Below are positions 13,609 through 59,793 of a stretch of 64,000 nucleotides of DNA, piece after piece (within the stretch, counting starts at the first letter, position 1; each line of letters begins with the position of its first letter). The notes below the pieces were generated by a model. That model was not told where the DNA came from. It searched no databases and saw only the letters and a program-made list of their open reading frames with translations. Source of the DNA: Thiomicrorhabdus arctica DSM 13458 (GTDB taxonomy: Bacteria > Pseudomonadota > Gammaproteobacteria > Thiomicrospirales > Thiomicrospiraceae); NCBI RefSeq assembly GCF_000381085.1, contig NZ_KB905899.1, forward strand, positions 1,302,001-1,366,000, written 5' to 3'. Position numbers and translations under genes: made by a program.

Positions 13609-13638
13609 TTTAAAGTGACCAGGCCTGGTCACTTTAAA
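13609..13638. repeat. Perfect 30-bp palindrome containing ACCAGGCCTGGT
   Basis: All 30 bases are self-complementary around the AGGCCT centre; the core ACCAGGCCTGGT is at 13618-13629. It lies 18 bases past the fadL stop codon, between convergent genes. This is the longest copy of the dispersed palindrome in the window. Confidence 0.85.
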
Positions 13639-13656
13639 GAAGAAATTCCATTAAGA

Positions 13657-14943
13657 TTAATACGTCCAGACGAGCTGCGCGCTTAAAATATCAACCGATA
13701 AATCGTATGAACCGACTAAAACACTATTCCCTAAATCAGATTGAAGTGTGTAGTCAACATCTGCTCTATCAGCCATGATACGAGTGTATGCAAAATCAAT
13801 CGACATTTTAGAACTGACTTTGTAACCAGCACCGACTGAAACCCACTTGCGATCTGCATCAGGCGTTCTTGGAGAACGGCTGTATTTATCAGGCACAGGG
13901 GTTTCATCTAACGCTACACCCGTACGCAACTTCCATGTATCGTCTAATTGGTAAACCATACCGACTGCATAACGCATACTATCGCCAAAGTTTTGATTAG
14001 ATTCTGAATTTGGTCCATTGTTATCAAACTTAACAATCAATTCATCATAGGCCTTCCAACCTGTCCACGTACTGCTCGCTAACAGCTGAATTTTATCATT
14101 CACTTTATAATCAACAGCCAGACTTGCCGTTGCGGGTAGGTTAACGCTAGCAGATGCATTCGCGTCGAACAGCACCTGATTTAAGGTATAACCACCTAAA
14201 TTGTAGCTTGAGTTAATCCCGGTGTAGTCCACATTACCTTTAACGTTATGTGTCATTGCAGATCGATAGGACAAGCCAATATTGAGCGCTTCTACCGGGG
14301 TGTACATCAGCCCCAAATTGTAGCCATACGCCCAACTATCGCCAGTCACTTCTGCAGTACCATCAGTATCACCAATAGCCGATTGGTTAATTTTTTGTTG
14401 CAAAACCACATCTACATACTGGGCGTTCAAACCAACACCAAACGAAAACTGATTGTTTATTTTACGAGCAATTGCTGGATTAATATTTAAGGTTTTCAGA
14501 TTTGTTTCAGTCGCATGATAGCGCCCAACCCAATTTTCATCATAAGAAATATGTTGACCAAATGGAGTATTAATTCCTAAACCAGCATCATAGTCACCCA
14601 ACTTACCTTTCCAATAAATATTAGGCACTAAACCAAGGGTTGCCCCATTATCACCAGAACCAGAAATATCATTACCTGGAGCACCAAAATAGGAGTGATT
14701 GTTAGAAAAATCGGCCACGGGTGAAATAATATGCGCACCTAAGATAGCCTGACTACCTTTAATTTTAGTCATTCCAGCTGGGTTAAACCACAGGACACTG
14801 GCGTCTTCTGCATTAGCCGCCGCACCCGCATAAGAGAGCCCCTGACCACTAGCACTTTGTTCAATTAATGCAAAACCTGATGCATTGGCGGCTTGTGATG
14901 CTAAAGCGATTAAAACTGCATTTGTTAGTTTATTGAATGACAT
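13657..14943 (-). CDS. FadL/TodX-type outer membrane transporter
   Basis: Outer membrane beta-barrel for hydrophobic substrates such as long-chain fatty acids or aromatics, 428 residues. A signal peptide ends near ANASG. The mature N-terminus has the FadL hatch features (FALIEQSASGQGLSYAGAAANAEDASVLWFNPAGM), and the NPAGM segment is diagnostic. The C-terminus ends in an aromatic residue (LVWTY), as expected for barrel assembly. It is transcribed alone. Substrate specificity cannot be read from the sequence. Confidence 0.92.
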   Translation of the reverse strand: MSFNKLTNAVLIALASQAANASGFALIEQSASGQGLSYAGAAANAEDASVLWFNPAGMTKIKGSQAILGAHIISPVADFSNNHSYFGAPGNDISGSGDNGATLGLVPNIYWKGKLGDYDAGLGINTPFGQHISYDENWVGRYHATETNLKTLNINPAIARKINNQFSFGVGLNAQYVDVVLQQKINQSAIGDTDGTAEVTGDSWAYGYNLGLMYTPVEALNIGLSYRSAMTHNVKGNVDYTGINSSYNLGGYTLNQVLFDANASASVNLPATASLAVDYKVNDKIQLLASSTWTGWKAYDELIVKFDNNGPNSESNQNFGDSMRYAVGMVYQLDDTWKLRTGVALDETPVPDKYSRSPRTPDADRKWVSVGAGYKVSSKMSIDFAYTRIMADRADVDYTLQSDLGNSVLVGSYDLSVDILSAQLVWTY

Positions 14944-15101
14944 ATTATTTCCTGTTTTTTTAAATTTGCGACATTCTATCAGGACTTAGGTCATACCGAT
15001 AATTGAAATTAATGAGGAGGGGGATAAGTAAATTGAATTGCCATACCGGATGGAACGATAAACAACCAGACCTGACCATTATAAAGACCCTTGGTGATTA
15101 A

Positions 15102-16469
15102 TCAGAGAACGTTCAAGGCTTCTTGCAAACTCTTTACGCCGATGACTTCCATCCCAGGAACCCCCCCTTTTGGCACATTACCGATGGGAACGATGGCTCT
15201 TTTAAAGCCATGTTTGGCGGCTTCAAACAGTCTCTCTTGACCACTAGGAACCGGACGAATCTCACCTGCCAAACCAACCTCACCAAAGACAATTAACTCT
15301 TGGGAGAGTGGCTGATTTCGCATGCTTGATAGAATCGCAGAGAGTACGGCTAAATCGGCACTGGTTTCTGTGACCTTGACCCCGCCGACCACATTGACAT
15401 AGACATCTTGATCACTGGCTTGAATGCCACCATGACGATGCATTACCGCCAATAGCATAGCAATTCGATTTTGATCTAAACCAACCATGACCCGCTTAGG
15501 AGCGCCATACAATGCATCGTCGACCAAGGCTTGTATCTCAACTAATAACGGTCTTGAACCTTCCCAGATGACCATGACGACTGAACCTGATGAAATCTCA
15601 TCTCCCCGGGAGAGAAAGATAGCCGAAGGATTTTTGATCTGTTTCATCCCTTTTTCAGTCATGGCGAACACACCTAATTCATTGACCGCACCAAATCTAT
15701 TTTTGATGGCTCGTAGTGTTCTAAAACGGCTGTCTGACTGGCCTTCTAAAAATACAACGGTATCAACAATATGCTCCAAGACTCTTGGTCCTGCAACTTC
15801 ACCTGACTTAGTCACATGCCCGACTAAAAAGATTGCAATATTATTCTGCTTAGCATAACGGGTTAAATAAGCCGCTGTCTCACGCACCTGGGAAACCCCA
15901 CCCGCCGCACCACTGACCTCAGCGAGTTGCATGGTTTGAATAGAATCGACCACCATAACTTTCGGTGATTCATTCTGTGCTGCTGCGGTAATTAGCTCGA
16001 CATCCGTCTCGGTTAATAGACGTAGTTTTTGATCTGGTAACTCCATGCGTTTTGCGCGCAGAGCCACTTGTTGTAAAGACTCTTCACCCGTCACATACAA
16101 GACATTATGCACCATGCTTAAATGACACATAACTTGTAATAAAATGGAAGATTTACCAACCCCAGGATCTCCGCCAATTAACACCACAGAACCTGGTACG
16201 ATGCCTCCCCCCAACACACGATCTAACTCGGTCATGGTGGATGATATTCTAGGAACGGATGCTAAATCGACATCGACAATGGACTTGACCTGACACTCCA
16301 TCGCCCCTGAAAAGCCTTTAGGGGCAGCTGAACCACTCGCACTTTTCGCTGGGCTGAGTTTAAATTCCTTGAGGGTGTTCCATGCGCTGCAGGCCATGCA
16401 TTGGCCTTGCCACTGGGAGTGTTCTGCACCACAATCAGTACAGACGTAGGCGGACTTTATTTTTGCCAT
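15102..16469 (-). CDS. radA: DNA repair protein RadA (Sms)
   Basis: RecA-related ATPase that drives branch migration during recombination, 455 residues. Four zinc-finger cysteines (C10, C13, C24, C27), Walker A GDPGVGKSS (100-108), the RadA-specific KNRFG motif (about 256) and a C-terminal Lon-protease-like domain are all present. A 158-bp miniature inverted-repeat element sits 20 bases before its start codon. Without that element the gene would follow directly after the FMN glutamate-synthase-like gene. Confidence 0.96.
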   Translation of the reverse strand: MAKIKSAYVCTDCGAEHSQWQGQCMACSAWNTLKEFKLSPAKSASGSAAPKGFSGAMECQVKSIVDVDLASVPRISSTMTELDRVLGGGIVPGSVVLIGGDPGVGKSSILLQVMCHLSMVHNVLYVTGEESLQQVALRAKRMELPDQKLRLLTETDVELITAAAQNESPKVMVVDSIQTMQLAEVSGAAGGVSQVRETAAYLTRYAKQNNIAIFLVGHVTKSGEVAGPRVLEHIVDTVVFLEGQSDSRFRTLRAIKNRFGAVNELGVFAMTEKGMKQIKNPSAIFLSRGDEISSGSVVMVIWEGSRPLLVEIQALVDDALYGAPKRVMVGLDQNRIAMLLAVMHRHGGIQASDQDVYVNVVGGVKVTETSADLAVLSAILSSMRNQPLSQELIVFGEVGLAGEIRPVPSGQERLFEAAKHGFKRAIVPIGNVPKGGVPGMEVIGVKSLQEALNVL

Positions 16470-16488
16470 GAATACTATCGCTCTTTAT

Positions 16489-16646
16489 GAGACCTTTGCA
16501 CAAGTCAGGGACGCGAGAAAAATGAGATAAAATTTTACTGATTAAGGCGGGAAACTTGTTAATAGCGAGCTATTGACAAGTTTCTCAACGAAAAGCAGGG
16601 AGATTTTAGCCTTTTTTATCCGTTTATGACCTCGTGCAAAGGCCTC
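16489..16646. mobile_element. 158-bp MITE with IS5-like terminal inverted repeats
   Basis: The ends GAGACCTTTGCAC (16489-16501) and GTGCAAAGGCCTC (16634-16646) are inverted copies with one mismatch. TTTAT occurs directly outside both ends (16484-16488 and 16647-16651), consistent with target duplication. Inside lies a hairpin with 16-base arms (16551-16566 and 16569-16584, one G-T position). No coding capacity. The sequence GAGACCTTTGCA is common at ends of IS5-family elements; this assignment is from memory of the family. Confidence 0.8.
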
Positions 16647-16647
16647 T

Positions 16648-18195
16648 TTATGATTGTTTGACTGAAGATGTCGCCTGAATATCGATGCCTTGAAAAGCCA
16701 TTGGCGTTTCTTCAGGAAAAATTTGGGCCAATGGTAATGACTTTCCTGTGCCTTGCACCACTCTGACATGCTCTCGTGTGAATTGACGCGGTTCGGCCAC
16801 TCCGCAAGAGTGTGCTATTAAAGACACTTCATGAATAAGATTGTGATGATAACTTGCAACGCGTTTGGATTTTTTCTCTGGGACCAAACCGCTTTGTAAA
16901 CGTTTGTTATGTGTCGTTATCCCGGTCGGACAACTGTCTTGATGGCACTGCATTGCCTGAATACAGCCTAATGAAAACATGAAACCTCGGGCAGAATTAA
17001 TAAAGTCTGCTCCCATGGCTAAAGCCCAAGCGACCATCGTCGGACTCGTTAGCTTTCCAGAGGCTATCACCCGGACTTTCTCTCGTAACTGATACTTAGT
17101 CAATAAATCTATGACATAAGGTAAGGATTCGGCTAAGGGCAGACCGACATCATCCATCAATGCAATAGGCGCTGAACCCGTCCCTCCTTCCGCGCCATCA
17201 ATCGTAATAAAATCAGGTGCAGAATCTAAACCGCGTTGCTGAACCGACTGACAAAAGGTCTCAAACCAGGCTGGAGATCCCATGACAAATTTGAAACCCA
17301 CAGGTTTACCGGTTACATCCCTTACCTGATGAATCATGTCTAACAGGCTCTCATTATCAAAAATTTCAGGATGGCGATTGGGACTGATCGAATCTTCTCC
17401 GACAGGAATCCCTCTTATATCGGCAATTTGTTGCGTGACTTTCGCACCTGGTAATATTCCACCTTTTCCCGGTTTTGCACCTTGACTCATTTTAATCTCA
17501 AACATTCGAACTTGTTCGTGGGCGGCGGCCTCCCTTAATTTTTCATTGCTCAAGTTACCACTTTTATCACGATACCCATATTTAGCCGTACCAATCTGTG
17601 CGACCAAGTCCGCACCGCCCTGCAAATGAAACTCAGACAGCCCTCCTTCACCAGTATTCATCCAGCAACCCGCCTGCTTTGCACCTTGGCTCAAAGCTAA
17701 CACAGCAGGTTTAGACAAGGCGCCAAAACTCATGCCCGAAATATTAAACAAGGATTGTGCTCGAAAGGGGGTTTGAGTATTTGGCCCAATCAACATAGGA
17801 GGGGAAGAGACTGAGTCCTTTTCTAACATCGGAAATGCACAATTAGTAAACAATATTTTGCCAGGATGACTGATATTTCGCGTTGAGCCAAATCCTTGGG
17901 TAGTCGAAATGTTTTTTGAAGCACGGTATACCCAGGTACGTTGTGCTCGGTTAAAAGGGCGTTCATCTTGGTCCGCTGCATACATGTATTGACGCATGAA
18001 TTTGCCTAAATATTCGAATAGATAACGAAATCGAGCGATCACCGGGTAATTGTGACGAATTGCGTGTTCAGTTTGCATCCGATCGACAATAAATGTGACC
18101 AGCAACAGCGCAACGGTAAAGCCTGTCACCATGATAAAAATAATAGACATCCAATGTAAAATCATTGCAACCCAACCCAATGTCATTGTTTCCAT
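16648..18195 (-). CDS. FMN-binding glutamate synthase family protein
   Basis: Membrane-anchored protein of 515 residues: one or two N-terminal membrane helices (about 10-40) followed by a GltB-like FMN/iron-sulfur barrel. Family stretches seen include MSFGALSKPAVLALSQGA, TGEGGLSEFHLQGGADLVAQIGTAKYG, and a cysteine-rich region near IQAMQCHQDSCPTGITTH. Members are related to glutamate synthase central and FMN domains, but stand-alone versions lack the amidotransferase part and their substrate is unknown. Its stop codon lies inside the target duplication of the adjacent mobile element. Confidence 0.85.
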   Translation of the reverse strand: METMTLGWVAMILHWMSIIFIMVTGFTVALLLVTFIVDRMQTEHAIRHNYPVIARFRYLFEYLGKFMRQYMYAADQDERPFNRAQRTWVYRASKNISTTQGFGSTRNISHPGKILFTNCAFPMLEKDSVSSPPMLIGPNTQTPFRAQSLFNISGMSFGALSKPAVLALSQGAKQAGCWMNTGEGGLSEFHLQGGADLVAQIGTAKYGYRDKSGNLSNEKLREAAAHEQVRMFEIKMSQGAKPGKGGILPGAKVTQQIADIRGIPVGEDSISPNRHPEIFDNESLLDMIHQVRDVTGKPVGFKFVMGSPAWFETFCQSVQQRGLDSAPDFITIDGAEGGTGSAPIALMDDVGLPLAESLPYVIDLLTKYQLREKVRVIASGKLTSPTMVAWALAMGADFINSARGFMFSLGCIQAMQCHQDSCPTGITTHNKRLQSGLVPEKKSKRVASYHHNLIHEVSLIAHSCGVAEPRQFTREHVRVVQGTGKSLPLAQIFPEETPMAFQGIDIQATSSVKQS

Positions 18196-18294
18196 TTAGC
18201 ATATCCCTTTGTATCAAATTGGCTTGACGACCATTTTGCCATGTTTAGTATAGACTGCTTTTTATACGTTTATATCACCAAGAAAACCATAAAT

Positions 18295-18322
18295 AAAAAA
18301 GCCCGCATTGAAGCGGGCTTTA
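18295..18322 (-). terminator. Terminator of the petABC operon
   Basis: Stem AAAGCCCGC with GCGGGCTTT (six-base loop) and a U-run on the minus strand, 22 bases past the petC stop codon. Confidence 0.9.
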
Positions 18323-18343
18323 ACTGACTGATTGACATTATCG

Positions 18344-19003
18344 TTAATGCTCGATGTCTTTCCAATACTCTCTTTTCAAAAGATAAGCCAGCAACAACAA
18401 AACAAGTAAAAAAGCGACAACCTTCCAGCCTAAGTCTAAGCGATCAATCTTCGAGGGTTCACCTACATAGTCCAGAAAGTTTGTAATATCACGCGCAGCT
18501 TCAGCATACTCTTCTTCACTTGAGTGACGTTGAATCCCCTCAAGTACGTTCGGCATAGCTGTGCCTTTTAAAACATGATTTTCCCATTCACCTTTCTCAT
18601 TTTGCTCATAGCCACGTAAAAAGCTATAAATATAATCCGTGCCTTTTAATCGAGACATCAGAGATAAATCAGGTGGTTCAGTTCCAAACACATCCATTGC
18701 CACACCTGGCAATATACGGGTTGTAACGTCTTCATATACTGTGCTTTGACCGTAAGCCATTTCGGCAACAATGGCATCTTCGTCCCAACCTAAATTACGT
18801 GCAATACGATTATAACGCATGTATTTTAGTGAGTGACAGGCCATACAATAATTAGAAAACAAGATTGCGCCACGTTTCAGAGAGTCTTGATCACGTAAAT
18901 TATTCTGTGCTGGCTCCAGGGTAATACCGTACCCTCCGGAAGCCTGAACACTAGCTGATAAAGAGAGCATACAGAAACTTAATATTAATAAAAATTGTTT
19001 CAT
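18344..19003 (-). CDS. petC: Cytochrome c1 of the bc1 complex
   Basis: Haem c subunit of the quinol:cytochrome c oxidoreductase, 219 residues. It has a signal peptide (about 1-21), the haem attachment site CMACH (53-57), an axial methionine in GTAMPNVLEG and one C-terminal membrane helix (about 192-212). It accepts electrons from the Rieske protein and passes them to soluble cytochrome c. It starts immediately after petB without overlap and ends the petABC operon. Confidence 0.96.
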   Translation of the reverse strand: MKQFLLILSFCMLSLSASVQASGGYGITLEPAQNNLRDQDSLKRGAILFSNYCMACHSLKYMRYNRIARNLGWDEDAIVAEMAYGQSTVYEDVTTRILPGVAMDVFGTEPPDLSLMSRLKGTDYIYSFLRGYEQNEKGEWENHVLKGTAMPNVLEGIQRHSSEEEYAEAARDITNFLDYVGEPSKIDRLDLGWKVVAFLLVLLLLAYLLKREYWKDIEH

Positions 19004-20233
19004 TTAAGTAACCCTCTCTGGAACAGGCTTAGTATGTTCATTTTTCGAAGTAAAGGGTAATACCAAGAAAAACATGAAGTACAACGCGGTAAATATTTGC
19101 GCTAACTTTGTTAATTCAGGGGTTGCAGGCTGAGTTCCCAACCAACCTAAAACGACAAAACTCACCACCAAGATTGTTAAGAGGATTTTAAAAGAGATCC
19201 CACGATAACGAATTGATTTAACTTTACATCGATCTAACCATGGCATAGCGAATAACACGGCAATCGCACCGCCCATGGCAACTACACCTAAAAATTTATC
19301 TGGTATCGCACGTAAGATTGCATAAAACGGCGTGAAATACCAAACGGGTGCAATATGATCAGGTGTTTTCAATGGATTCGCTGGTTCAAAGTTGGGCGCT
19401 TCAATAAAGTACCCCCCCCCTTCTGGTGCATAAAATATCACCAAGGCAAATAGCGTCATAAAGAATACGGCGCCCATCGTGTCTTTTACAGAATAGTAAG
19501 GATGGAAAGCAATCCCATCGATTGGCAGACCTTTATTATTTTTATATTTTTTAATCTCAACTCCATCAGGGTTATTCGAACCTACCTGGTGCAGTGCCAC
19601 AATGTGCATAAAGATCAAAATAACCAGTACCAAAGGTAAGGCAATCACGTGTAATGCAAAGAAACGATTCAAGGTGACATCAGAGATAACAAAATCACCT
19701 CGAACCCATAAGGCTAAGTCAGGTCCAATGACAGGAATGGCTCCAAATAAAGAGATAATAACCTGAGCACCCCAGTAAGACATTTGACCCCATGGCAGTA
19801 GATAACCCATAAAGGCTTCTGCCATTAAGACTAAGAAAAGCATCATGCCTAGTAACCACACCAGCTCCCTAGGCTCCTTATAAGAGCCGTAAAGCAATCC
19901 TCTCATCATATGCAGATAAACCACTAGAAAGAAAGCGGAAGCCCCCGTAGAGTGCATATAACGAATAAGCCAACCCCACTGCACATCACGCATAATGTAT
20001 TCAATTGAGTTAAACGCTTCTGCCGCACTCGGTTTATAGCTCATGGTTAGCCAAATACCAGAAACGATCTGATTGACAAAAACCAATAATGCTAAGGCGC
20101 CAAAGAAATACCAAAAGTTAAAGTTTTTAGGTGCATAGTACTCACCGACATGCTTGTTCCAGGTACTGATTAACGGATAACGTTTATCAAACCAGGCTAA
20201 TAAAGTTGATTGCTGCTTATTTTGTTCGGACAT
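19004..20233 (-). CDS. petB: Cytochrome b of the bc1 complex
   Basis: Membrane core of the bc1 complex carrying the two b haems and the quinol oxidation and reduction sites; 409 residues with eight expected helices. Haem-ligand histidines occur in the WLIRYMHSTGASAFF/HMMRG region and in FFALHVIALP. The quinone-site tetrapeptide PEGG appears in YAPEGGGYF. The start ATG shares one base with the petA stop. The three Gly codons after PE are all GGG, producing an uninterrupted nine-G run at 19412-19420. Confidence 0.96.
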   Translation of the reverse strand: MSEQNKQQSTLLAWFDKRYPLISTWNKHVGEYYAPKNFNFWYFFGALALLVFVNQIVSGIWLTMSYKPSAAEAFNSIEYIMRDVQWGWLIRYMHSTGASAFFLVVYLHMMRGLLYGSYKEPRELVWLLGMMLFLVLMAEAFMGYLLPWGQMSYWGAQVIISLFGAIPVIGPDLALWVRGDFVISDVTLNRFFALHVIALPLVLVILIFMHIVALHQVGSNNPDGVEIKKYKNNKGLPIDGIAFHPYYSVKDTMGAVFFMTLFALVIFYAPEGGGYFIEAPNFEPANPLKTPDHIAPVWYFTPFYAILRAIPDKFLGVVAMGGAIAVLFAMPWLDRCKVKSIRYRGISFKILLTILVVSFVVLGWLGTQPATPELTKLAQIFTALYFMFFLVLPFTSKNEHTKPVPERVT

Positions 20234-21004: not shown

Positions 21005-21005
21005 C

Positions 21006-21746: not shown

Positions 21747-21787
21747 CCTACCCTCTCCACTGCTGTCAAAAACCTTTTAAATAGGCA

Positions 21788-21824
21788 CAAAAAAACCACC
21801 AGGCCTGGTCAGACCGAGTGGTTT
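21788..21824 (-). terminator. Terminator of the his/mur operon containing the palindrome
   Basis: Stem AAACCAC (21793-21799) with GTGGTTT (21818-21824), followed by a U-run on the minus strand. The loop region carries an exact ACCAGGCCTGGT (21798-21809), which could fold into a competing hairpin. Confidence 0.75.
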
Positions 21825-25435: not shown

Positions 25436-26200
25436 TTATTCGCGTATTTTAACGCCTTTGTGTAATAAAATCAGATTTATCGCAGACACAATCAGCAAGA
25501 ACAATAACGTGACTGACAAACTTAAATAAACCGATACGTCAGACTGCCCAAAGAACCCATAACGAAATCCATCAACCATATAGAAGAACGGATTAAATTG
25601 TGAAATTTCTTGCCAGACACCCGGCAAAGCGTGAATTGAATAAAATACGCCACTTAAAAACGTTAATGGCATAATGACAAAATTCTGGAACGCGGCTAAA
25701 TGGTCATACTTATCCGAAATAATGCCCGCTAACATACCCAGCCCCCCCATCATCGCGGCACTTAAAATAGCAAACAACATAATCCATAATGGTGACTGCC
25801 AACTCAAGTCAAACCAAATAATGCCAACCACTAATATTGCTAAACCAACGGCAACACCACGCACTATCGCCGCCCCAACAAATGCAACATACAACTCAAG
25901 AGGTGAAATTGGACTCAGTAAGACAAAGGTTAAATTACCGTGCATTTTCGATTGAATCAAACTTGAAGACGTATTCGCAAAGGCGTTTTGCAAAATTGCC
26001 ATCATTACCAGACCTGGTATTATAAACTGACTATAATCTAAACCAGAATAGACATCTATCTGCGTATCTAACACTTGTCCAAAAACCAACAAATACAATA
26101 ATGTCGCCACCACTGGCGCAAATACAGTCTGTACCACGACCGAATAAAAACGTCTTATTTCTTTAATAAAGAGCGCCCAACACCCAGCATAATTTATCAT
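25436..26200 (-). CDS. ABC-2 type transporter permease
   Basis: Membrane subunit of an ABC exporter, 254 residues with six hydrophobic segments and the ABC-2 family signature near FLSGVFYSIHALPGVWQEISQFNPFFYMVDGFRYGFFG. Similar to YadH. The start shares one base with the stop of the ATPase gene (TAATG). The substrate is not known. A near copy of the ACCAGGCCTGGT palindrome (one mismatch) is at 26007-26018, encoding Pro-Gly-Leu-Val. Confidence 0.88.
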   Translation of the reverse strand: MINYAGCWALFIKEIRRFYSVVVQTVFAPVVATLLYLLVFGQVLDTQIDVYSGLDYSQFIIPGLVMMAILQNAFANTSSSLIQSKMHGNLTFVLLSPISPLELYVAFVGAAIVRGVAVGLAILVVGIIWFDLSWQSPLWIMLFAILSAAMMGGLGMLAGIISDKYDHLAAFQNFVIMPLTFLSGVFYSIHALPGVWQEISQFNPFFYMVDGFRYGFFGQSDVSVYLSLSVTLLFLLIVSAINLILLHKGVKIRE

Positions 26201-33529: not shown

Positions 33530-34111
33530 ATGCCTCAATCCAGAATTCGATTTAAAATCATCTTATTAGCCAGCTTTTCGTCCTTTTTATTAGCCAAAAG
33601 CCCTGAGAGTTTTGCACTGACACAAACTCCAGATGAAGAACAACCTGTTCATATTTCTGCCAACAGTCTAGATGCACAAGAAAAAAGTGGCATTAGTATC
33701 TACAAAGGTAATGTCATCGTGACCCAAGGCAGCCTGACTTTAAAGGGTGATGAAATCATCGTAAAGCATCCAAATAACCTGTTAAAAACCGTCAAAGCGA
33801 CAGGACAACCAGCGCGTTTCAAACGCTTTAGCCAAACGGACCAGTCCTGGTTAAAAGGTAAAGCGAATATGATTGAATATGATGCGCTTAATAAAACTGT
33901 TTTATTAGTGGGCAGTGCTCAAGTAGAACAACCTGGACAGCACCTTATTAAGGGGCCTAAACTATTTTACGACATGACCAATCAGACCCTAAAAGCGCAG
34001 AGTACCGAACAGGAAAAAGGACGCATTTCCGTCACCTTTAACCCTGCGACTAATACAGTCCCCAATCCAGCTTCGGAAAACAAACCCACTACTCTTCCGC
34101 CTGAACAATAA
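33530..34111 (+). CDS. lptA: LptA, periplasmic LPS bridge protein
   Basis: OstA-domain protein that polymerises into the periplasmic LPS bridge; 193 residues with signal peptide (about 1-30). The start of the OstA fold is clear in PVHISANSLDAQEKSGISIYKGNVIVTQGS. Start set at ATG 33530 because AAGG lies ten bases upstream; a GTG at 33524 is too close to that site. It ends in a disordered Pro/Thr-rich tail, and lptB starts nine bases later. Confidence 0.93.
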   Translation: MPQSRIRFKIILLASFSSFLLAKSPESFALTQTPDEEQPVHISANSLDAQEKSGISIYKGNVIVTQGSLTLKGDEIIVKHPNNLLKTVKATGQPARFKRFSQTDQSWLKGKANMIEYDALNKTVLLVGSAQVEQPGQHLIKGPKLFYDMTNQTLKAQSTEQEKGRISVTFNPATNTVPNPASENKPTTLPPEQ

Positions 34112-39989: not shown

Positions 39990-40018
39990 AAAAAGCCAGA
40001 TAATCCTCTATCTGGCTT
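39990..40018 (-). terminator. Terminator downstream of secDF
   Basis: Stem AAGCCAGATA (39993-40002) with TATCTGGCTT (40009-40018) and a six-base loop. The minus strand then runs into T-rich sequence. The dispersed palindrome lies between this hairpin and the secF stop. Confidence 0.8.
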
Positions 40019-40043
40019 CAAAAGGCGGTCAACGCATAGAATG

Positions 40044-40055
40044 ACCAGGCCTGGT
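40044..40055. repeat. ACCAGGCCTGGT palindrome after secF
   Basis: Exact copy of the dispersed 12-bp palindrome, within four bases of the secF stop codon. Confidence 0.9.
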
Positions 40056-43576: not shown

Positions 43577-43592
43577 TGACCAGGCCTGGTCA
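43577..43592. repeat. 16-bp palindrome TGACCAGGCCTGGTCA after tgt
   Basis: A perfect 16-base palindrome with the 12-bp core at 43579-43590, 13 bases past the tgt stop. A six-T run follows on the plus strand, although no plus-strand gene reads into it. Confidence 0.9.
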
Positions 43593-51704: not shown

Positions 51705-52293
51705 GCAAGTAGCATTTAAAATTATTTTTTTGACAAACTTATGCTTACCGTTGACAGCATTTTCTCAAGAAATTAAACTCTCTGAATTGTTTAAGGCCTT
51801 AAACCAAGTACAGACTGAGCATAAAAGCTTCATTGAAGAACAATTTGATCCCTTATTAGAGATTTCACAAACTCAATCTGGCGAGATGTATTATCAATCG
51901 CCCAATTTGCTAGAGCAACGTTATGAAAAGCCAATAGCAGGCACCATCACGTTTACCCCTACACTGATTAAGTTCAATTTTCCAGACCGAACGCTAGAAC
52001 TTCCCGTAGAAGGCTTTCCTGAAGTTGCTCTATTTTCGCAAACTTTTTTAAATCTACTCAATGGTAACTTAGCGCTCTTGCAAAAAAACTTTGAGTTAGC
52101 ATTTAAGGCATCAGAAAACCAGGTTTGGCAGCTTAGTTTAACGCCAACCAACCAGCTTAAAAAGCATATACAAGCAATTCAAATCATAGGTTCACAGACT
52201 GAGATACAATCGATTCTACTCACTAAAACGTCAGGGGATTGGCGTAAAATTACATTGCAACCCATTGCGGTCAAGACAATTGAAGTCAAATGA
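51694..52293 (+). CDS. LolA-like periplasmic carrier of the polyene cluster
   Basis: 199-residue protein with signal peptide (about 1-24) and an OM lipoprotein carrier (LolA) fold: FIEEQFDPLLEISQTQSGEMYYQSPNLLEQRY is the typical N-terminal part. Cluster-specific LolA paralogues are thought to move the polyene lipid across the periplasm with the MMPL exporter, whose gene overlaps this one by four bases. This is not the housekeeping LolA by context. Confidence 0.83.
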   Translation: MRLKQVAFKIIFLTNLCLPLTAFSQEIKLSELFKALNQVQTEHKSFIEEQFDPLLEISQTQSGEMYYQSPNLLEQRYEKPIAGTITFTPTLIKFNFPDRTLELPVEGFPEVALFSQTFLNLLNGNLALLQKNFELAFKASENQVWQLSLTPTNQLKKHIQAIQIIGSQTEIQSILLTKTSGDWRKITLQPIAVKTIEVK

Positions 52294-54599
52294 AAATGAC
52301 AAATCGTCAAATCATTTTTTCTTCTTTAATCTGGATTTTTATCGGTATTATTGCCTGGGCAAGCCTCGTCGCTTTTTTCAATAAATCACCCTTTCAAAAT
52401 GACATCACCCAGTTTTTTCCAAACCAGCAAAGTATTGAGGCCCAATACTTAAAAAACCGTCTGACACCTACTCAAAAAACGAGCTGGTTAATGCTTGCTG
52501 TTAAAACGAATCAACCTAAACAAACACTTTATGACATCAGTCACACAGTACAATCCCAATTATTAACACTGAAGGGTGTCAAGCAAGTATTAAATGGGGC
52601 TGAGCCTTACCAAAGCCCGTTACAACAATCACCAACGCCTAAGCTGTATGCTTACCGTTATCTAATGACTTCGTTTGAATCTGCACAATTGAGTGCACAC
52701 ATTCAGCAAAGATGGCAAGAGTATCAATTAGGCTTTGTGCTAGACAAACATTGGTTGCTAGACGACCCTACATTTCAATGGGCTCTTTATCAAAACAAAC
52801 TCAAACCTATTCAGCAATTAGTCAAAGAGAACGGTGTTTGGGTCAGCCCCCAATCCACAAAAGCATTACTCTTGATTGAAACCGAAAAACAGCCTAAGGT
52901 GCTGGCCAATCTTTATAAACAATTAGAACGTTCATTAGGTAAGAATAATTTCCAACTGTCTGGCGCCGACTGGGTAGCGTTGCAAGCAGAACAGCAGATT
53001 AGAAAAGGGGTGAACTGGATTACCAGCATCGCACTGGGCATGGTATTTTTAGCGCTTTTTATTGCATTTCGCTCTCCAAAACTCATTTTATTCAGTAGCT
53101 TACCGCTTCTTGGGGCCTTTTCAGTTGGCATACTCAGCACAATTAGCCTTTTTGGCAGTATGCAATTAATCACCTTGGCACTCGGAGCAATTCTATTAGG
53201 GGTGGCAATAGATTACCCAATCCATACCATTTCAGCCTACCAATCTAGAAAACTTTCAGTCGTCCAGCAAATATGGCCGACTATTCGCCTTGGCGCGCTG
53301 ACCAGTGCATTTGGATTTTTAATGCTGTGGTGGATAAATATTGAAGGTTTGCAACAGATGGCCATCTTTGCTTCGAGCGGGTTGCTCACCGCGTTATTCA
53401 TTACTCGAGCTCTCAAACCTTTCCTCGCGTCTCACTATAAAATAGATGACATAACATCTAGCGAACCACCCGCTAAAAGCATGATCAATCAAACTCCAAG
53501 TCTTTATTTTGTAGGTTACCTTCTACCAGGCCTGGTCATTATTGCAGCGATTCTGTTTTTAAAACCTATTCAGTGGCAGGATGATATCGCCAGCTTGAGT
53601 CCAGTCTCGAAGGGTTTGATTCAAACCGATAGACAACTACGGTCGTTATTTCAGTATCAAGAGGTGGGTAAACAGCTGCTTTTACCGGCTAAAAATATTG
53701 AAGTTCTTTTACAACATGAAGAAGCTTTGCTGGCTGAATTAGAACATCTGAAAACGACAGGTGCGATTCAGCAATTTCAATTGCTTGCACAGAGTTTACC
53801 TAGCCAACGTTTACAAGCCAAACGCCAGAAAAACTTACCTGATGCTAAAATGGTTTTAACTTCACTGAGCCATGCTGTAGAGGCTACACGCTTTACAACG
53901 ACACACTTTCAACCTTTTATAAACAGCTTGGAACTCAGTCGAAAACTGCCTTTAATGACTTATGTTAAGTTCATTGAGACTAATGAAACCTCAGCACGAT
54001 TAGCGAGCCAATTGGTTCTATCACTTTCAGATCAAATGGTCGGGGTCATTCCGCTTTCAGGTGTGGTTTCGGATCAAGTCATTGAGGATTTTGTCCAACA
54101 ACATGCCGACTTAGGGCTTATCTATTTCAATCAGCGCAAATTGGTTGCCAAGCAAATCACAGAAATTCGCTTTGGACTGTTTCAAATATTAGGCTTTATC
54201 CTATTGATGTTAGGAATTAGCCTTTGGTTAAAATACCGTAGTGTTAGACAAGTGATCATTGTTTTAAGTCCTATCATCATGGCGATTGGGTTAACCTTAG
54301 CCACGCTTGCACTGCTCAATATATCGTTAAGTATTTTTCACTTAATGAGCCTAATGCTTGTCGCAGCCATCGGTATTGATTACAGTCTGTTATTTTTTGA
54401 AGGTGCGCAACAGACCAAAAACTCTCATGAATGGAGCCGCTCAATTCGAGTCGCATTTTTAACCACTTTAGGCTCATTTAGCATATTGAGCATGAGCCAA
54501 CTCGCACTGCTTAATGCGATTGGTATAACGGTTTTAATCGGCGTATTATGGGTCTACAGCTTAGCGTTTCTGCTTGCGAAAAATCCAAACCGACAGTGA
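52290..54599 (+). CDS. MMPL/RND-family exporter of the polyene cluster
   Basis: Large membrane exporter of 769 residues built of two repeats, each with a single helix, a periplasmic domain and a five-helix bundle. Proton-relay type motifs occur in both halves (GVAIDYPIH and AAIGIDYSLLF). Members in aryl-polyene and hydroxybenzoquinone clusters export the lipid product. It contains one exact copy of the dispersed palindrome at 53525-53536, read as Pro-Gly-Leu-Val. It ends the left operon and converges with the flavoenzyme gene 18 bases away. Confidence 0.88.
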   Translation: MKMTNRQIIFSSLIWIFIGIIAWASLVAFFNKSPFQNDITQFFPNQQSIEAQYLKNRLTPTQKTSWLMLAVKTNQPKQTLYDISHTVQSQLLTLKGVKQVLNGAEPYQSPLQQSPTPKLYAYRYLMTSFESAQLSAHIQQRWQEYQLGFVLDKHWLLDDPTFQWALYQNKLKPIQQLVKENGVWVSPQSTKALLLIETEKQPKVLANLYKQLERSLGKNNFQLSGADWVALQAEQQIRKGVNWITSIALGMVFLALFIAFRSPKLILFSSLPLLGAFSVGILSTISLFGSMQLITLALGAILLGVAIDYPIHTISAYQSRKLSVVQQIWPTIRLGALTSAFGFLMLWWINIEGLQQMAIFASSGLLTALFITRALKPFLASHYKIDDITSSEPPAKSMINQTPSLYFVGYLLPGLVIIAAILFLKPIQWQDDIASLSPVSKGLIQTDRQLRSLFQYQEVGKQLLLPAKNIEVLLQHEEALLAELEHLKTTGAIQQFQLLAQSLPSQRLQAKRQKNLPDAKMVLTSLSHAVEATRFTTTHFQPFINSLELSRKLPLMTYVKFIETNETSARLASQLVLSLSDQMVGVIPLSGVVSDQVIEDFVQQHADLGLIYFNQRKLVAKQITEIRFGLFQILGFILLMLGISLWLKYRSVRQVIIVLSPIIMAIGLTLATLALLNISLSIFHLMSLMLVAAIGIDYSLLFFEGAQQTKNSHEWSRSIRVAFLTTLGSFSILSMSQLALLNAIGITVLIGVLWVYSLAFLLAKNPNRQ
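53525..53536. repeat. ACCAGGCCTGGT palindrome inside the MMPL gene
   Basis: Exact copy within coding sequence, in the codon register CCA-GGC-CTG-GTC. Confidence 0.9.
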
Positions 54600-54617
54600 A
54601 ACTGAACCAATACAACG

Positions 54618-55847
54618 TTATTCAATGATGGAAAACCGATAGATGGTATCTACCATTTTCTTAGGATTCGTCACAAAAACATTCTCTTGATTCCAAACAT
54701 AACCACTGAGAACCGAGACCACTGATTGTGACACTTTTTCTGCTTTGTCGTCACAGAATAGAATCGATTGCAAACGACCATCATACCAAGCGTTAACATA
54801 TTCTCGAAAAACATTAATGCCCACCATCATGTAATCGGCATAATCTATTTGCCAATCTACAGAGTGACCATTTAGCTCCTTAATGGTAAGCTCTGCCGCT
54901 TTCGCTCCCGACTCTAGCGCTAACGTTACCCCAGAACTGAAGACCGGATCCAAAAATTCTGAGGCATTACCCACTAACACAAAGTTCTTATCAAATAGCT
55001 TGGTAACGGCTGCCGAGTACCCATTGATACAACCTACAGCTTGAATTTTAGTCGCCTGTGCATAGCGCTTTGACGCGGGTAGGTTTGTTTGAATGATATA
55101 ATCAAAAAACTCAGATTCCGTCAGATTAAAACTTTTAAAGTATTGTTCATCACAGACAATACCGACCGAAGTTACGCCATCGTTAAAAGGAATATTCCAC
55201 AACCAGGCCTGATTATCATCATGAATACCCACAAAAATATAGCCATCTTTCCCGTCTACCAATGAGCGTACGTCTCCAGTTACTCGACAGAAGATGGCTT
55301 TACGCATCGCTTGTTCAGAAGGTTTCTCCAACCCTAATAACCTCGGTAAAACACGACCATAACCAGACGCATCGATCACTTTTTTGGGTTGATATCGTTG
55401 TACCTCTCCGGACTTAGTTCTTACGGTAATAATGCAATCTTGGGCATCAAAATCGATTACTTCAGATTCAAACTCCACAACGACCCCTTTTCTTTGGGCA
55501 TCCAACAGAAGCTCATGGTCAAAAGTTTCGCGCTTTACTTGAAATGAACTATTAAAGGATTCCCCTAAGTTATTCTCAAAATTAATAACCTCTAAATCGC
55601 TATCTGTTTGGAAGACAACGCCTGGTTTGTATTGAAAATTTGCCTGTTGGATGCACGCTAACATATTCGCTTCATCCAATAGAAAGTTGCATCTCGGGAG
55701 TAATGATTCACCGATCACGAAACGCGGAAAGACCATTTTCTCAACCAGTTTTACTTTAAAACCAGATTGCACAAGTTTGGCACCAGCAATAGAACCTGCT
55801 GGCCCGCCGCCTATAATAAATACGTCATAGTTTTGATTTAAATTCAT
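54618..55847 (-). CDS. FAD-dependent oxidoreductase with halogenase-type motifs
   Basis: Flavoprotein of 409 residues in the tryptophan halogenase/geranylgeranyl reductase superfamily. The dinucleotide-binding GGGPAGSIAG is at 13-22. GESLLP follows at 46-51. K74 in QYKPGVVF aligns by position with the catalytic lysine of phenolic and pyrrole halogenases, and WLWNIP (215-220) satisfies the WxWxIP halogenase motif. These residues are necessary but not sufficient for halogenation; some relatives are plain monooxygenases or reductases. It ends the right operon, eight bases after the glycosyltransferase. Confidence 0.8.
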   Translation of the reverse strand: MNLNQNYDVFIIGGGPAGSIAGAKLVQSGFKVKLVEKMVFPRFVIGESLLPRCNFLLDEANMLACIQQANFQYKPGVVFQTDSDLEVINFENNLGESFNSSFQVKRETFDHELLLDAQRKGVVVEFESEVIDFDAQDCIITVRTKSGEVQRYQPKKVIDASGYGRVLPRLLGLEKPSEQAMRKAIFCRVTGDVRSLVDGKDGYIFVGIHDDNQAWLWNIPFNDGVTSVGIVCDEQYFKSFNLTESEFFDYIIQTNLPASKRYAQATKIQAVGCINGYSAAVTKLFDKNFVLVGNASEFLDPVFSSGVTLALESGAKAAELTIKELNGHSVDWQIDYADYMMVGINVFREYVNAWYDGRLQSILFCDDKAEKVSQSVVSVLSGYVWNQENVFVTNPKKMVDTIYRFSIIE

Positions 55848-55855
55848 TCACTTCT

Positions 55856-56599
55856 CTAGTCTTGAATAATTTTTGGATTTTTTGTGAGCGATCTGACCAG
55901 GCCTGGTAGGTTCATGCCTTTTTTGAATAATTTTTTGGCGACCATAAAAGTTATTTGAGTAATATCAAATCCGGCTCTGAAGTGGCTAGCGCGTCGATTA
56001 TCTGCATAAACAGTATCAATCGGAATAAAAGCAAAACCGTAGTTTAAATGCGCGGCATCCACAAGCACTTCACTTTCAAAAACGAACCCTGATTTATTCT
56101 CATATGGAAAATGTAACTTGTTTAATAGACTTGCTGGATACAGACGAAAACCTGATTGGCTATCAGCAATAGGTCGACCTGCAGCCCAACCTACCCAAAA
56201 ATCGGCAATACTATTGGCAATACGCCTTGAACGGGGGGCATTTTGACGATCCTTTAATCTGGATGCAATACATAAATCTTTTGAATTTTTTTCATAATGA
56301 GCCAGTAATTTGGGAATGTCTAAAGGACTATGCTGCGCATCGCCATCCAAGGTCACGATAGCTTCAACTCCAAGCTTTAACGCTCTTTCAAACCCTGCTT
56401 GCAACGCTTTAGCTTTACCACCATTAACAGGTAAATCCATTAAAATAGCATTCGTTTTTCTCACCAATTCAGCCGTATCATCTTCTGACGCATCATTCAC
56501 GACAATCACCAACGAAGTCTGTTTTAAAGCCTCACTCACAACCTGTGTAATTGTCAGAGTTTCATTGTAGGCGGGAATTACTACTGCAAAATTTTTCAT
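55856..56599 (-). CDS. Family 2 glycosyltransferase
   Basis: GT-A glycosyltransferase of 247 residues similar to dolichol-phosphate mannosyl transferases. The VVIPAYNE start, NDASEDDT and the metal-binding LDGDAQH (85-87 DGD) are visible, but there is no C-terminal membrane domain. Start at ATG 56599 is supported by an AAAGGA site; an in-frame extension to 56662 overlaps the upstream gene. It may glycosylate the polyene or its lipid anchor. An exact dispersed palindrome sits at 55896-55907, encoding Pro-Gly-Leu-Val. Confidence 0.85.
   Translation of the reverse strand: MKNFAVVIPAYNETLTITQVVSEALKQTSLVIVVNDASEDDTAELVRKTNAILMDLPVNGGKAKALQAGFERALKLGVEAIVTLDGDAQHSPLDIPKLLAHYEKNSKDLCIASRLKDRQNAPRSRRIANSIADFWVGWAAGRPIADSQSGFRLYPASLLNKLHFPYENKSGFVFESEVLVDAAHLNYGFAFIPIDTVYADNRRASHFRAGFDITQITFMVAKKLFKKGMNLPGLVRSLTKNPKIIQD
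55896..55907. repeat. ACCAGGCCTGGT palindrome inside the glycosyltransferase gene
   Basis: Exact copy near the 3' end of the gene, in the register CCA-GGC-CTG-GTC on the coding strand. Confidence 0.9.
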
Positions 56600-56633
56600 T
56601 AAACATCCTTTACACTCATTCAACCAATCCCAT

Positions 56634-57323
56634 TTATCTAATTTTATGGAGTATTTTTTCATTATTTAAAAGCTGACTTACAAATCGTCCAGTACAGTAC
56701 CAATTTAAAAAAAAGGCCTCTAATAAAATTTTATAAACTTGCGTCAAATTTAGATGCCACTCTTTTTCAGCGGGTAAACAACGCGTTGAAAACCCCATGT
56801 TTTTAGCCATGACCGAACAACGTAGTAAATGATAACGATTAGAAATCAATGTCACGTTTAGAGGTAACTTTGTTTGTTGCAGGTATTCTCGGGTGTACTT
56901 TAGGTTCTGTAACGTATTCTTAGACCTGTCTTCAAGAATCAAGGAGGTTGTATCGCGATAAGCGCTGATGAACTTAGATGAATTGAATAAATAGGCTTGT
57001 CCAGCTTGCGCTTCGCTGAGGGTATTTTTGCAGATGATACCGCCCTGCAGAATAAGACACTTAGGTTTTTCGATAGGGAGCCAGTCTATGACCGTGTTTA
57101 AACGTTGTTTAAATTCGGTGTCTGGCTGATTTTTATTAAGTTGTTTTCCAAACAGAATCCAAATCTCATGTTGGAAGGTTGGTTGAGCTGTTTTAGCAAC
57201 TTGATATACCTTCATAACATACCAGACAATTATAAGACCCAGCGTACCTAACGCCCATAACATTGAAAGGGACAGCATCAAGACACCATCCCAGTCTATT
57301 GAGGCAACTTTACTAACTTTCAA
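56634..57323 (-). CDS. DUF218/YdcF-like membrane protein
   Basis: 229-residue protein with one N-terminal helix (about 14-38) and a DUF218 domain (about 50-215). Pattern residues of the family are present: ILFGKQLN, LILQGG, LEDRSKNTLQNLKYTREYL and LISNRYHLLRCSVMAKNMG. DUF218 proteins such as ElyC and SanA act in envelope biogenesis, but no reaction is firmly known. It lies between the lipoprotein gene (four bases) and the glycosyltransferase. Confidence 0.8.
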   Translation of the reverse strand: MKVSKVASIDWDGVLMLSLSMLWALGTLGLIIVWYVMKVYQVAKTAQPTFQHEIWILFGKQLNKNQPDTEFKQRLNTVIDWLPIEKPKCLILQGGIICKNTLSEAQAGQAYLFNSSKFISAYRDTTSLILEDRSKNTLQNLKYTREYLQQTKLPLNVTLISNRYHLLRCSVMAKNMGFSTRCLPAEKEWHLNLTQVYKILLEAFFLNWYCTGRFVSQLLNNEKILHKIR

Positions 57324-57327
57324 CGTA

Positions 57328-57717
57328 CTAGTGTATTAGTTGTACTTGGATTGCACGATCCAGATTCATTATCCAACCATTATAATTACTATGAATAGTC
57401 TTTTCTTCTTCGTCATAATCCAGCTGTTCGCTCGATTTATACAATAAACTATATTGGCTACTTGAATATGGAATTGTAATTCTAGCCACATGCCTTCTTA
57501 AAAATAATGTTCCCTCTAAAGTACTTGCATCAACCTCTTTAATTATCCAGCCTAAACCCATACCGGCACGCTTAATCGCTTGTTTAACTTGGTCTGAATT
57601 TTCGATACTGTTTGGAACAACCTTAGACTCAACTTCATGTATGGGTTTTACGCCACAAGCTGTTAATAAAAAAGAAACCACGGCGAGCATTAAAAAAGAT
57701 ATCCATTTTTTTTGCAT
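57328..57717 (-). CDS. Small lipoprotein of unknown function
   Basis: 129-residue lipoprotein: signal peptide with lipobox LLTACG (Cys at about 21) and a small alpha/beta domain ending in the pattern IHSNYNGWIMNLDRAIQVQL. This domain type, with IHxxYNxWIxNLxRxI, recurs in lipoproteins of many proteobacteria; no function is known to me. It is not the DUF3261 lipoprotein frequently found in aryl-polyene clusters, which is longer. Confidence 0.75.
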   Translation of the reverse strand: MQKKWISFLMLAVVSFLLTACGVKPIHEVESKVVPNSIENSDQVKQAIKRAGMGLGWIIKEVDASTLEGTLFLRRHVARITIPYSSSQYSLLYKSSEQLDYDEEEKTIHSNYNGWIMNLDRAIQVQLIH

Positions 57718-57794
57718 TATTTTTTCCTTACAGATTTAGAATTTTCAAAGCCCATCAAAGCTTGGATTTACACTTATTATACGACATTAACAAT

Positions 57795-58529
57795 CTATAC
57801 CATGCCGCCATTAATAGACATTACTTGCCCAGTGATATAACTCGACTTGCTTGAAGCTAAAAAGCTTACTAAATCGGCGATTTCTTGAGGTTTGCCTGCT
57901 CTTTGCATCGGCACCACCTGCTTAAGCCGTTCAGGGGGAAAGCTACAATTCGCCATCTCACCTTCAATGACACCTGGTGCCACGACATTTACCGTAATTT
58001 TACGAGATGCTAACTCTAGTGCCAGCGATTTACTCGCGCCAATCAAACCGGCTTTTGCCGCAGCGTAATTTGCCTGTCCACGATTGCCCATAATACCGGC
58101 GACCGATGCGATGTTAATCACTCGTCCCCAACGGGTTCTAATCATAGGCAACAATAAAGGCTGAGTGACGTTAAAAAACCCATCCAAAGTGACCGCAATC
58201 ACTTTTTGCCACTGCTCATGTGTCATCCCGGCCATGACCGCATCGTCGTGGATGCCGGCATTATTAATGATGACTTGAACTGGCCCCGTCTCCAGAATTG
58301 TTTCAATAGCCTGTTCAACCGCGACAGTATCAGTCAGATCAAAACAGATTGCATAGGCAATCCCACCCTGCTTCTGAATACTCTTAGCGAGTAATTCGGC
58401 CTTTGATAACTGCGAGTTTGCATGAATCCACACTTCATAACCATCGGTTGCAAGCTGAGTGGCGATTGCGGAGCCTAAGTCGCCACTTCCGCCGGTGACT
58501 AATGCTTTTATCTTCCTTTTTTCTACCAT
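57795..58529 (-). CDS. 3-ketoacyl-ACP reductase (ApeQ/FabG-like)
   Basis: Short-chain dehydrogenase of 244 residues that reduces the beta-keto group during chain extension. The NAD(P)-binding TGGSGDLG is at 12-19, NNAG at about 89-92, and the catalytic triad Ser142, Tyr155 and Lys159 is intact. Follows the dehydratase gene by 11 bases in the right operon. Confidence 0.9.
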   Translation of the reverse strand: MVEKRKIKALVTGGSGDLGSAIATQLATDGYEVWIHANSQLSKAELLAKSIQKQGGIAYAICFDLTDTVAVEQAIETILETGPVQVIINNAGIHDDAVMAGMTHEQWQKVIAVTLDGFFNVTQPLLLPMIRTRWGRVINIASVAGIMGNRGQANYAAAKAGLIGASKSLALELASRKITVNVVAPGVIEGEMANCSFPPERLKQVVPMQRAGKPQEIADLVSFLASSKSSYITGQVMSINGGMV

Positions 58530-58540
58530 GTTTTTTCCTT

Positions 58541-58987
58541 TTAATCCGAATCAGGATGTATGACCATCACTCTGCCTGAACAAATCTTTCTCAACTTAGC
58601 ATCCGTAATATAAAACGCATACCGTTTGCATGTTTCATCTACCATAATAATCGTCGCAGTCACCTCTAAAAACTCAGTCAGTGGATCAAATACCCCCCAT
58701 TCAACTCCTTTGACTGATGCAATATAACCTAACTTTGGTACACCTAACGTCGAAGACAGTTCCATTAATCCACCATGCACTGCAATTGCTTGCGCACCAT
58801 ACTCAATCAAGTGCATCTTAGAAAGTTTACCATCCGTTTTTAAAGGGTTATTTACCTCTAAATGCGACTGTGTTCTGCAAATAACTTCGGCATCTGTGTA
58901 AGACACTACTTGCTCTAATAAACACATGCCTCCCGCATGGGGAATGAGTGCTTCAATATCGGATTTAGTTAAGATAACCGTCATCAC
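58541..58987 (-). CDS. ApeP-like dehydratase subunit
   Basis: Hotdog-fold protein of 148 residues with the ApeP signature region ALIPHAGGMCLLEQV (about 11-25), typical of the divergent dehydratase subunit in aryl-polyene clusters. It would pair with the ApeI-like protein at 50486-50818. It overlaps the chain-length-factor gene by four bases (ATGA), so the two are translationally coupled. Confidence 0.85.
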   Translation of the reverse strand: MMTVILTKSDIEALIPHAGGMCLLEQVVSYTDAEVICRTQSHLEVNNPLKTDGKLSKMHLIEYGAQAIAVHGGLMELSSTLGVPKLGYIASVKGVEWGVFDPLTEFLEVTATIIMVDETCKRYAFYITDAKLRKICSGRVMVIHPDSD

Positions 58988-59793
58988 CCTAAAGAAACCT
59001 TGATAAAATTATTCCAATTTAATGGGAAGTGCATGTCACTCTTCTCATGACCCGACTGATATAACGCAATGGATTGTAAAAGAGGGTACGCTTCTGCTGC
59101 TGGCACCCCCGTATAAGGATTACTTTTCAAAGGCTTAAACGGCGCATCTTGTGTGAGCGAAAGTGACAACAATGGATAATCACTTTCGATCACTTCACTG
59201 GCATCTAATATCATCGAAAAGGCAAATGGGGCTTGGGATTTTTGCACCGTATCAACTGGCATTAATTCATCCAAAGGTAAATCGTAAATAACCATGAGAA
59301 CAGGTTTGCCATAATTTTGAGATTGTAGAATAGCCTCGAGTAAACCATTTGCAATCGCATATTCCCCTACCGAAATAGCACTGGCAGCCGCCTGATTTTC
59401 TTGACCGATCATCCAGTACCCCGCCGGTGCGTTGTGCACCGAGTTATGGAACTGAGTTGGTGAAATCATAGGCTCTTCTTCACTCACGGCCTGACACATT
59501 CGGGCTGAAATAAGCGTGTCTCCATCTTTACAAACGAATAATACGGGTAGTTTTGCTTCTGTTTCAGGATAAGCCTGCTGAAAAGAGACCAGCGCTTCTT
59601 CAGCTGTTTTCAAAGCCAGTTGAATAGTTGCAGTGGTGCGACGGCGTTCATTAGCCGGTAAAAAAGTCGGACTGTATTTCTCAATGGTCTTAGACATATC
59701 CGGTAACTGGTTTGTTAGCATCATTTTTTTAAACGTTTCAAAATTCACCAGGCCTGGTGCAGTTAAACCGATGCTGAGTATTTGAGCCTTCAT
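58984..59793 (-). CDS. Ketosynthase chain-length factor (ApeC-like)
   Basis: 269-residue beta-ketoacyl synthase N-terminal-like protein (PF13723 type). The position of the active-site Cys is not conserved (NAPAGYWMIG in the surrounding region), as expected for a non-catalytic partner that sets chain length. Coupled by four-base overlaps to both the upstream ketosynthase and the downstream dehydratase, which supports a heterodimer. An exact dispersed palindrome is at 59747-59758, encoding Pro-Gly-Leu-Val near the N-terminus. Confidence 0.85.
   Translation of the reverse strand: MKAQILSIGLTAPGLVNFETFKKMMLTNQLPDMSKTIEKYSPTFLPANERRRTTATIQLALKTAEEALVSFQQAYPETEAKLPVLFVCKDGDTLISARMCQAVSEEEPMISPTQFHNSVHNAPAGYWMIGQENQAAASAISVGEYAIANGLLEAILQSQNYGKPVLMVIYDLPLDELMPVDTVQKSQAPFAFSMILDASEVIESDYPLLSLSLTQDAPFKPLKSNPYTGVPAAEAYPLLQSIALYQSGHEKSDMHFPLNWNNFIKVSLG
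59747..59758. repeat. ACCAGGCCTGGT palindrome inside the chain-length-factor gene
   Basis: Exact copy in the register CCA-GGC-CTG-GTG on the coding strand. Confidence 0.9.

Follow-up and report, generated by a model that had tools for sequence, protein, structure and literature searches.

Uptake sequences are known from only two families, the Neisseriaceae and the Pasteurellaceae, according to a 2025 paper (PMC12616744). For the Neisseriaceae, PMC3630211 describes dialects of the DNA uptake sequence (DUS), inverted pairs of the word and pairs overlapped into a dyad. Here we examine a dispersed 12-bp palindrome, ACCAGGCCTGGT, in a 64-kb stretch of the Thiomicrorhabdus arctica DSM 13458 genome (contig C1, positions 1302001-1366000; hereafter the window), and compare it across 62 genomes of the family, which are referred to by handles (G0xx) and genus numbers. 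NCBI taxonomy places Thiomicrorhabdus in the Piscirickettsiaceae, Thiotrichales. The palindrome is probably the local dialect of a family-wide self-mark resembling DUS and the uptake signal sequences (USS) of the Pasteurellaceae, and from its distribution we infer a receptor, an uptake bias and a drive.

An earlier note on this DNA had listed seven exact copies of ACCAGGCCTGGT in the window, and all seven were recovered where it had placed them, against a maximum of zero in 100 dinucleotide-preserving shuffles. The whole 2.55-Mb genome contains 333 copies and none of a control, the same word read backwards. Markov models of orders 0-4, built from a 584-kb sample, expect 0.07-0.35 copies per genome; orders 5 and 6 expect 4.5 and 55, values that are both raised by the motif itself. 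The repeat is thus far above chance, as the note had argued, and simple chance is ruled out by the shuffles, the genome count and the Markov expectation. The next commonest 12-bp palindrome has two copies in the first 464 kb sampled, compared with 58 for ACCAGGCCTGGT. The word is the center of a longer motif, with an extended consensus of AAAnYG-ACCAGGCCTGGT-CRnTTT across 58 sites of this genome (flanks symmetrised), and its 41 one-mismatch variants in 584 kb include 14, 14 and 8 changed at positions 1, 2 and 6, respectively. Three IMG/VR viral contigs (L281, L282 and L283) each carry one copy of a 16-base form, TGACCAGGCCTGGTCA.

The sites are concentrated between genes, with genes taken here and in the window from open reading frame (ORF) calls made for this analysis and not from an annotation. 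Intergenic DNA makes up 14% of the sample but holds 46 of its 76 sites, the remaining 86% being covered by ORFs of 100 aa or more (p 2e-20). Convergent gaps are the densest, with 15 sites in 15.4 kb (~0.97/kb), followed by tandem gaps with 25 in 41.3 kb (0.61/kb), while divergent gaps hold 3 in 18.4 kb (0.16/kb); three further sites could not be assigned to a gap type. The 30 sites within ORFs are divided among the reading frames as 18, 10 and 2, the rarest frame reading ACC AGG CCT GGT.

Enrichment in relatives, which the note had proposed as a check, is evident across the family. Exact copies of ACCAGGCCTGGT number 84-718 in 27 of the 62 genomes, 6-38 in five and 0-3 in 30, and in 11 genomes a related word, AACAGGCCGGGT, AACAGGCCTGTT, CTGCCAGG(C/T)TGGG or ACCGGCCGGT, stands in its place, so that 38 of the 62 have a known word. 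These other words came to light when k-mers were counted in stretches sampled from low-count genomes, and each was then counted in all 62. With ACCAGGCCTGGT designated D1, dialect D2 (AACAGGCCGGGT) has 482 copies in G022 and 275 in G036, and at most eight in any other genome. D3 (AACAGGCCTGTT) has 114 copies in G046, 101 in G047, 42 in G033, 23 in G023 and 13 in G041, together with 32 in the D1 genome G034. D4 (CTGCCAGGYTGGG) has 215 in G007, 225 in G008 and 253 in G013, with at most one elsewhere, and D5 (ACCGGCCGGT) reaches 1025 in G026, with at most 15 elsewhere. Among the 24 genomes without a known word, 18 yielded readable samples of 3.8-60 kb each, several of them too short to judge; the stretches sampled from G002 held no readable base, and G017, G020, G037, G039 and G043 were left out of the sampling. 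In G028 (L083-L085), scattered weak candidates built on ATGATTGCCGGTAAA, six in 60 kb, are perhaps another dialect. Two repeats of other kinds were also seen: G021 (L064, L065), which has the highest D1 count of all, carries CGCGTGGATTGAAAC 38 times in 40 kb on a single strand in what looks like a CRISPR (clustered regularly interspaced short palindromic repeats) array, and in G008 (L060, L061, L117) several long units, ACCACAGCGGA among them, recur with 18-34 copies in the samples, perhaps from a repeat-protein gene.

The dialects differ in symmetry. D2 and D4 are asymmetric, their A-tract being confined to one side (AAAACTC-AACAGGCCGGGT and AAAATC-TGCCAGG). With regard to polar sites of the KOPS or Chi type, which are skewed in orientation along the replichore, D4 copies, for which part of the positions were listed, divide between the strands as 94/121, 101/124 and 123/130 in the three genomes; D1 is a palindrome. 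At sampled loci, seven of eight exact D2 or D4 pairs less than 80 bp apart lie head-to-head, 16-29 bp apart, and at least six head-to-head pairs are also seen in G036 among the matches listed. A tail-to-tail pair follows tgt in G008 and G013 when one mismatch is allowed. The D1 word reads as two such asymmetric half-sites overlapped at GGCC into a palindrome. On a SecD tree of 49 genomes, D2 forms one clade and D4 another, and all labels together require 12 changes compared with 27.6 in shuffles. D1 (seven changes), motif-less genomes (five), D3 (three) and relaxed-D1 (three), a label assigned in this analysis from near-copy counts, are not single clades.

Different dialects occupy the same places in the genome. 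The tgt-yajC-secD-secF locus could be read in 49 of the 62 genomes, and two slots were considered there, the tgt-yajC gap and the first 130 bp past secF, allowing at most one mismatch to the word. A genome's own word is present in at least one of these slots in 14 of 17 D1 genomes, all three D4 genomes and one of the two D2 genomes, the contig of the other ending before the secF slot. In the five D3 genomes the slots hold a one-mismatch form (G046), CAGGCCTG variants (G023, G041 and G047) or neither (G033), and in the only D5 genome the word lies 244 bp beyond secF. None of the 13 motif-less genomes has any of the words in the slots. Across nine Thiomicrorhabdus genomes at this locus, 48 of 61 site-pairs agree in all 12 bases, compared with flanks averaging 57% identity; the pairs are not independent, and MAFFT may have favored the motif when aligning. 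Turnover at closer range can be followed in Thiomicrorhabdus sp. NP51, a metagenome-assembled genome whose lnt gene is 91% identical to that of T. arctica (64% for T. cannonii HH3). At six site positions, in aligned blocks that are 71-86% identical, the two genomes differ by 0, 1, 1, 1, 1 and 2 substitutions in the 12 bases, with no insertion or deletion, which rules out an insertion element at these positions.

In the explanation that we favor, the natural-transformation machinery would include a surface receptor for DNA that, probably in concert with type IV pili, binds AAAn(T)GACCAGGCC half-sites; two of these, overlapped, would make up the 12-bp palindrome and its A/T tracts to the left and right. 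Word-bearing DNA would be preferentially taken up and then recombined in, and mutation together with biased uptake would let the word build up at any place that tolerates it, chiefly right behind the ends of genes. A change in receptor specificity, followed by the genome, may then give rise to dialects. What is seen here, a word in hundreds of copies, with dialects that replace one another slot by slot, inverted pairs, turnover by substitution and a permissive placement, is the outcome expected of biased uptake and recombination in DUS and USS species. The earlier note had named an uptake signal, a chromosome-organising protein site and a methylation or regulatory target as options; the first is the best supported of these, by the dialects, shared slots, gene-end enrichment, inverted pairs and substitution turnover, and the other two are weakened. 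A broader reading can be put forward tentatively, that uptake-sequence systems arose independently a third time, in these sulfur-oxidising bacteria, where a dimeric receptor unlike ComP or ComN would read dialects both palindromic and asymmetric, with switches between them inside a genus, or, more boldly, that the self-mark is kept without type IV pili through another uptake or gene-conversion route.

Several observations weigh against an uptake sequence. Only two of eight relaxed-D1 genomes have their own word in the tgt or secF slots (G052 and G053, both relaxed-D1, have AGCAGGCCTGCT at the locus), and conservation at the same locus is weaker in other genera, with identical site-pairs in 3 of 21 comparisons among four g6 genomes and in 1 of 3 between G006 and G009. 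ComEC is found in 56 of the 62 genomes and a PilT-type ATPase over the cut-off in 52, and neither follows the motif closely, several motif-less genomes having both; moreover, ComEC is no proof of competence because its profile also matches E. coli among the controls. Five genomes that are 99-100% complete (G010, G015, G052, G053 and G060) have no PilT-type match over the cut-off, yet hold 162-212 exact copies, and the near-copy spectra of G010, G052 and G053 display position-specific variants instead of random decay. Either PilT was lost recently in these genomes, or another uptake machine serves them, or the word has another role. Identical site-pairs in these PilT-less groups, 0 of 4 among G052, G053 and G060 and 1 of 1 for G010 and G015, are too few to judge; in the same comparison of site-pairs, the group labelled 'PilT+ g1' wrongly takes in G048, which has no PilT match. 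Their sister genomes mostly have two PilT-type ATPases. The ratio of one-mismatch to exact copies is 1.78-2.07 in the five, compared with 0.26-0.99 in 16 PilT-bearing D1 genomes, a comparison that left out G035 (0.93), G048 (1.02) and G057 (0.39), which have no PilT match and are 82-86% complete. The idea that the motif decays once PilT is lost was dropped, and decay is not claimed, because the PilT-bearing G005, G011 and G012 share high ratios (1.4-2.0) and the near-copy spectra are position-specific, as in relaxed dialects.

The search for a receptor also weighs against the uptake reading. None was recognised among the N-methyl matches of the T. arctica genome, and the family-wide search covered PF12019 only. 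The seven N-methyl matches over the cut-off in T. arctica are four pseudopilins of the type II secretion system (GspG-J) and three acidic pilin-like proteins of 311, 452 and 190 aa near miaB on contig C3. The latter are 52, 45 and 41% identical to their counterparts in NP51, which has the same dialect, and 52, 53 and 42% identical to those of T. cannonii, which has another, D2; since these identities are alike, the proteins do not track dialect and are unsupported as receptor. The FimT/GspH-type minor pilin (PF12019) is likewise unsupported, its matches being confined to three of the 62 genomes (G040, G042 and G051; L125-L127), all motif-less. The C3 cluster itself (L136:16223-19397, L137:75-1916) encodes the 311- and 452-aa acidic pilin-like proteins, which are unusually long for pilins, the second being rich in glycine towards its C-terminus. 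It also encodes a protein of 295 aa in which a similar CPD motif occurs, as well as a response regulator, a histidine kinase and the 190-aa pilin near miaB. Between T. arctica and NP51 these pilins are 41-52% identical, whereas miaB is 94% identical.

MatP, SlmA and Noc are named examples of proteins that bind nucleoid or chromosome-segregation sites, and a nucleoid-associated or segregation protein could in principle bind the motif found here, since a long symmetric 24-bp palindrome suits a dimeric cytoplasmic protein and the word persists in genomes without a PilT match. We nevertheless consider this reading unlikely. Along the first 827 kb of C1, the spacings of 100 sites fit an exponential distribution, as for random placement (coefficient of variation 0.90, Kolmogorov-Smirnov p 0.37), and two of the dialects are asymmetric. 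Copy numbers range from 718 to 0-3 within one genus, and the word differs between sister species, which is unexpected for a housekeeping site. It is quite unlikely that the word resembles HIP1, the cyanobacterial iterated palindrome, in being created and kept by a methyltransferase together with methylation-dependent mismatch repair. It is a GC-rich palindrome in a genome of 42% GC, its near-copies vary mostly at outer positions, as PMC4390886 describes for HIP1, and the same paper describes alternate words replacing HIP in some genomes. However, D2 and D4 are not palindromes and have one-sided A-tracts, the sites are strongly intergenic, and once the 338 places that match the motif with up to three mismatches are masked, the short cores show no enrichment, with observed/expected ratios of 0.99 for AGGCCT, 0.75 for GGCC and 0.80 for CCWGG (CCAGG/CCTGG). 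The chromosome-organising and methylation or regulatory options of the earlier note are weakened by the scarcity of sites in divergent gaps, where promoters lie, the random spacing, the lack of over-represented cores outside the long motif and the two non-palindromic dialects.

Placement also bears on a transcription terminator or a mobile palindrome spread by insertion, in the manner of repetitive extragenic palindromic (REP) sequences or miniature inverted-repeat transposable elements (MITE), which we regard as very improbable. The preference for convergent and then tandem over divergent gaps would fit such an element, and for three of the four intergenic sites in the window the predicted folding exceeds that of shuffles (z -4.4, -4.8 and -2.6). 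Against this, the secF site folds no better than shuffles (z -0.05) and is adjoined by a separate T-tailed hairpin further on (39992-40019), as in several D1 genomes, a plain terminator reading thereby being weakened. Sites within ORFs, 30 of the 76 sampled, and the six of six positions free of insertion or deletion in the comparison with NP51 also speak against it.

The uptake-sequence reading places sites above all just past gene ends, and the window provides examples. The earlier note had placed four copies shortly after the stop codons of fadL, hisD, secF and tgt, and this is confirmed, at distances of 3-42 bases 3' of the stop. The copy at 13618..13629 lies between a DoxX-type ORF and the convergent fadL-like gene and has extended arms, TTTAAAGTG...CACTTTAAA; that at 21798..21809 is 42 bases past the hisD stop, that at 40044..40055 is 3 bases past the secF stop, and that at 43579..43590 lies in the tgt-yajC gap, 14 bases past the tgt stop. 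The three copies that the note had put inside genes of a putative polyene cluster do lie within ORFs, encoding an MMPL-type transporter (53525..53536, in 52290-54599), a family-2 glycosyltransferase (55896..55907, in 55856-56662, minus strand) and a beta-ketoacyl-synthase-like protein (59747..59758, in 58984-59793, minus strand). Of its two near copies, that at 26007..26018 is a one-mismatch copy (ACCAGACCTGGT), but 8013-8034 has no match within two mismatches. Further one-mismatch copies lie at 2509..2520 (ACCAAGCCTGGT), 5404..5415 (ACCAGGTCTGGT), 33840..33851 (ACCAGTCCTGGT) and 55202..55213 (ACCAGGCCTGAT). An Rfam scan of the window matched three tRNAs and nothing else.

No report of the 12-mer ACCAGGCCTGGT was found in the literature searched. 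For four shorter words of the motif, none of the matches listed concerns bacteria of the Thiomicrorhabdus family, and among the matches listed for genus names combined with uptake-sequence terms, no such motif is reported for this family. If the uptake reading is true, this would be a third, free-living lineage with uptake sequences, with five dialects and motif-less sister clades, in which one could test directly how the specificity of uptake originates, changes and disappears, and which would offer fresh material for identifying receptors by co-variation.

Compared with described systems, the words share with cyanobacterial HIP1 and its alternates the over-representation of a GC-rich palindrome and the use of other words in some genomes; as described in PMC4390886, those words are palindromes of 5-8 bases tied to methyltransferases, whereas the words here span 12-24 bp and are not palindromic in all bearers, D2 and D4 being asymmetric. 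REP and MITE elements spread by insertion, of which the six positions compared bear no trace. The likeness to the Neisseriaceae is closer, comprising a word on the 12-bp scale, hundreds to thousands of copies, shared-core dialects that follow phylogeny, inverted pairs near terminators and the dyad-overlapped pairs of S. muelleri (PMC3630211). Unlike in that family, the commonest dialect here is palindromic, A/T tracts flank a different core, and no ComP-like receptor is known. Pasteurellaceae USS combine a 9-bp core with less conserved AT-rich segments, and have two dialects and inverted repeats able to act as terminators, according to PMC12616744; their core is unrelated, and the A-tracts here are near the core, flanking it on a single side in D2 and D4 and on both in D1. 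With DUS and USS the family shares genome-wide over-representation, related dialects with a common core, a distribution of dialects that follows the SecD tree, and inverted pairs near gene ends, formed in D2 and D4 by two copies of the word and in D1 by the palindrome itself.

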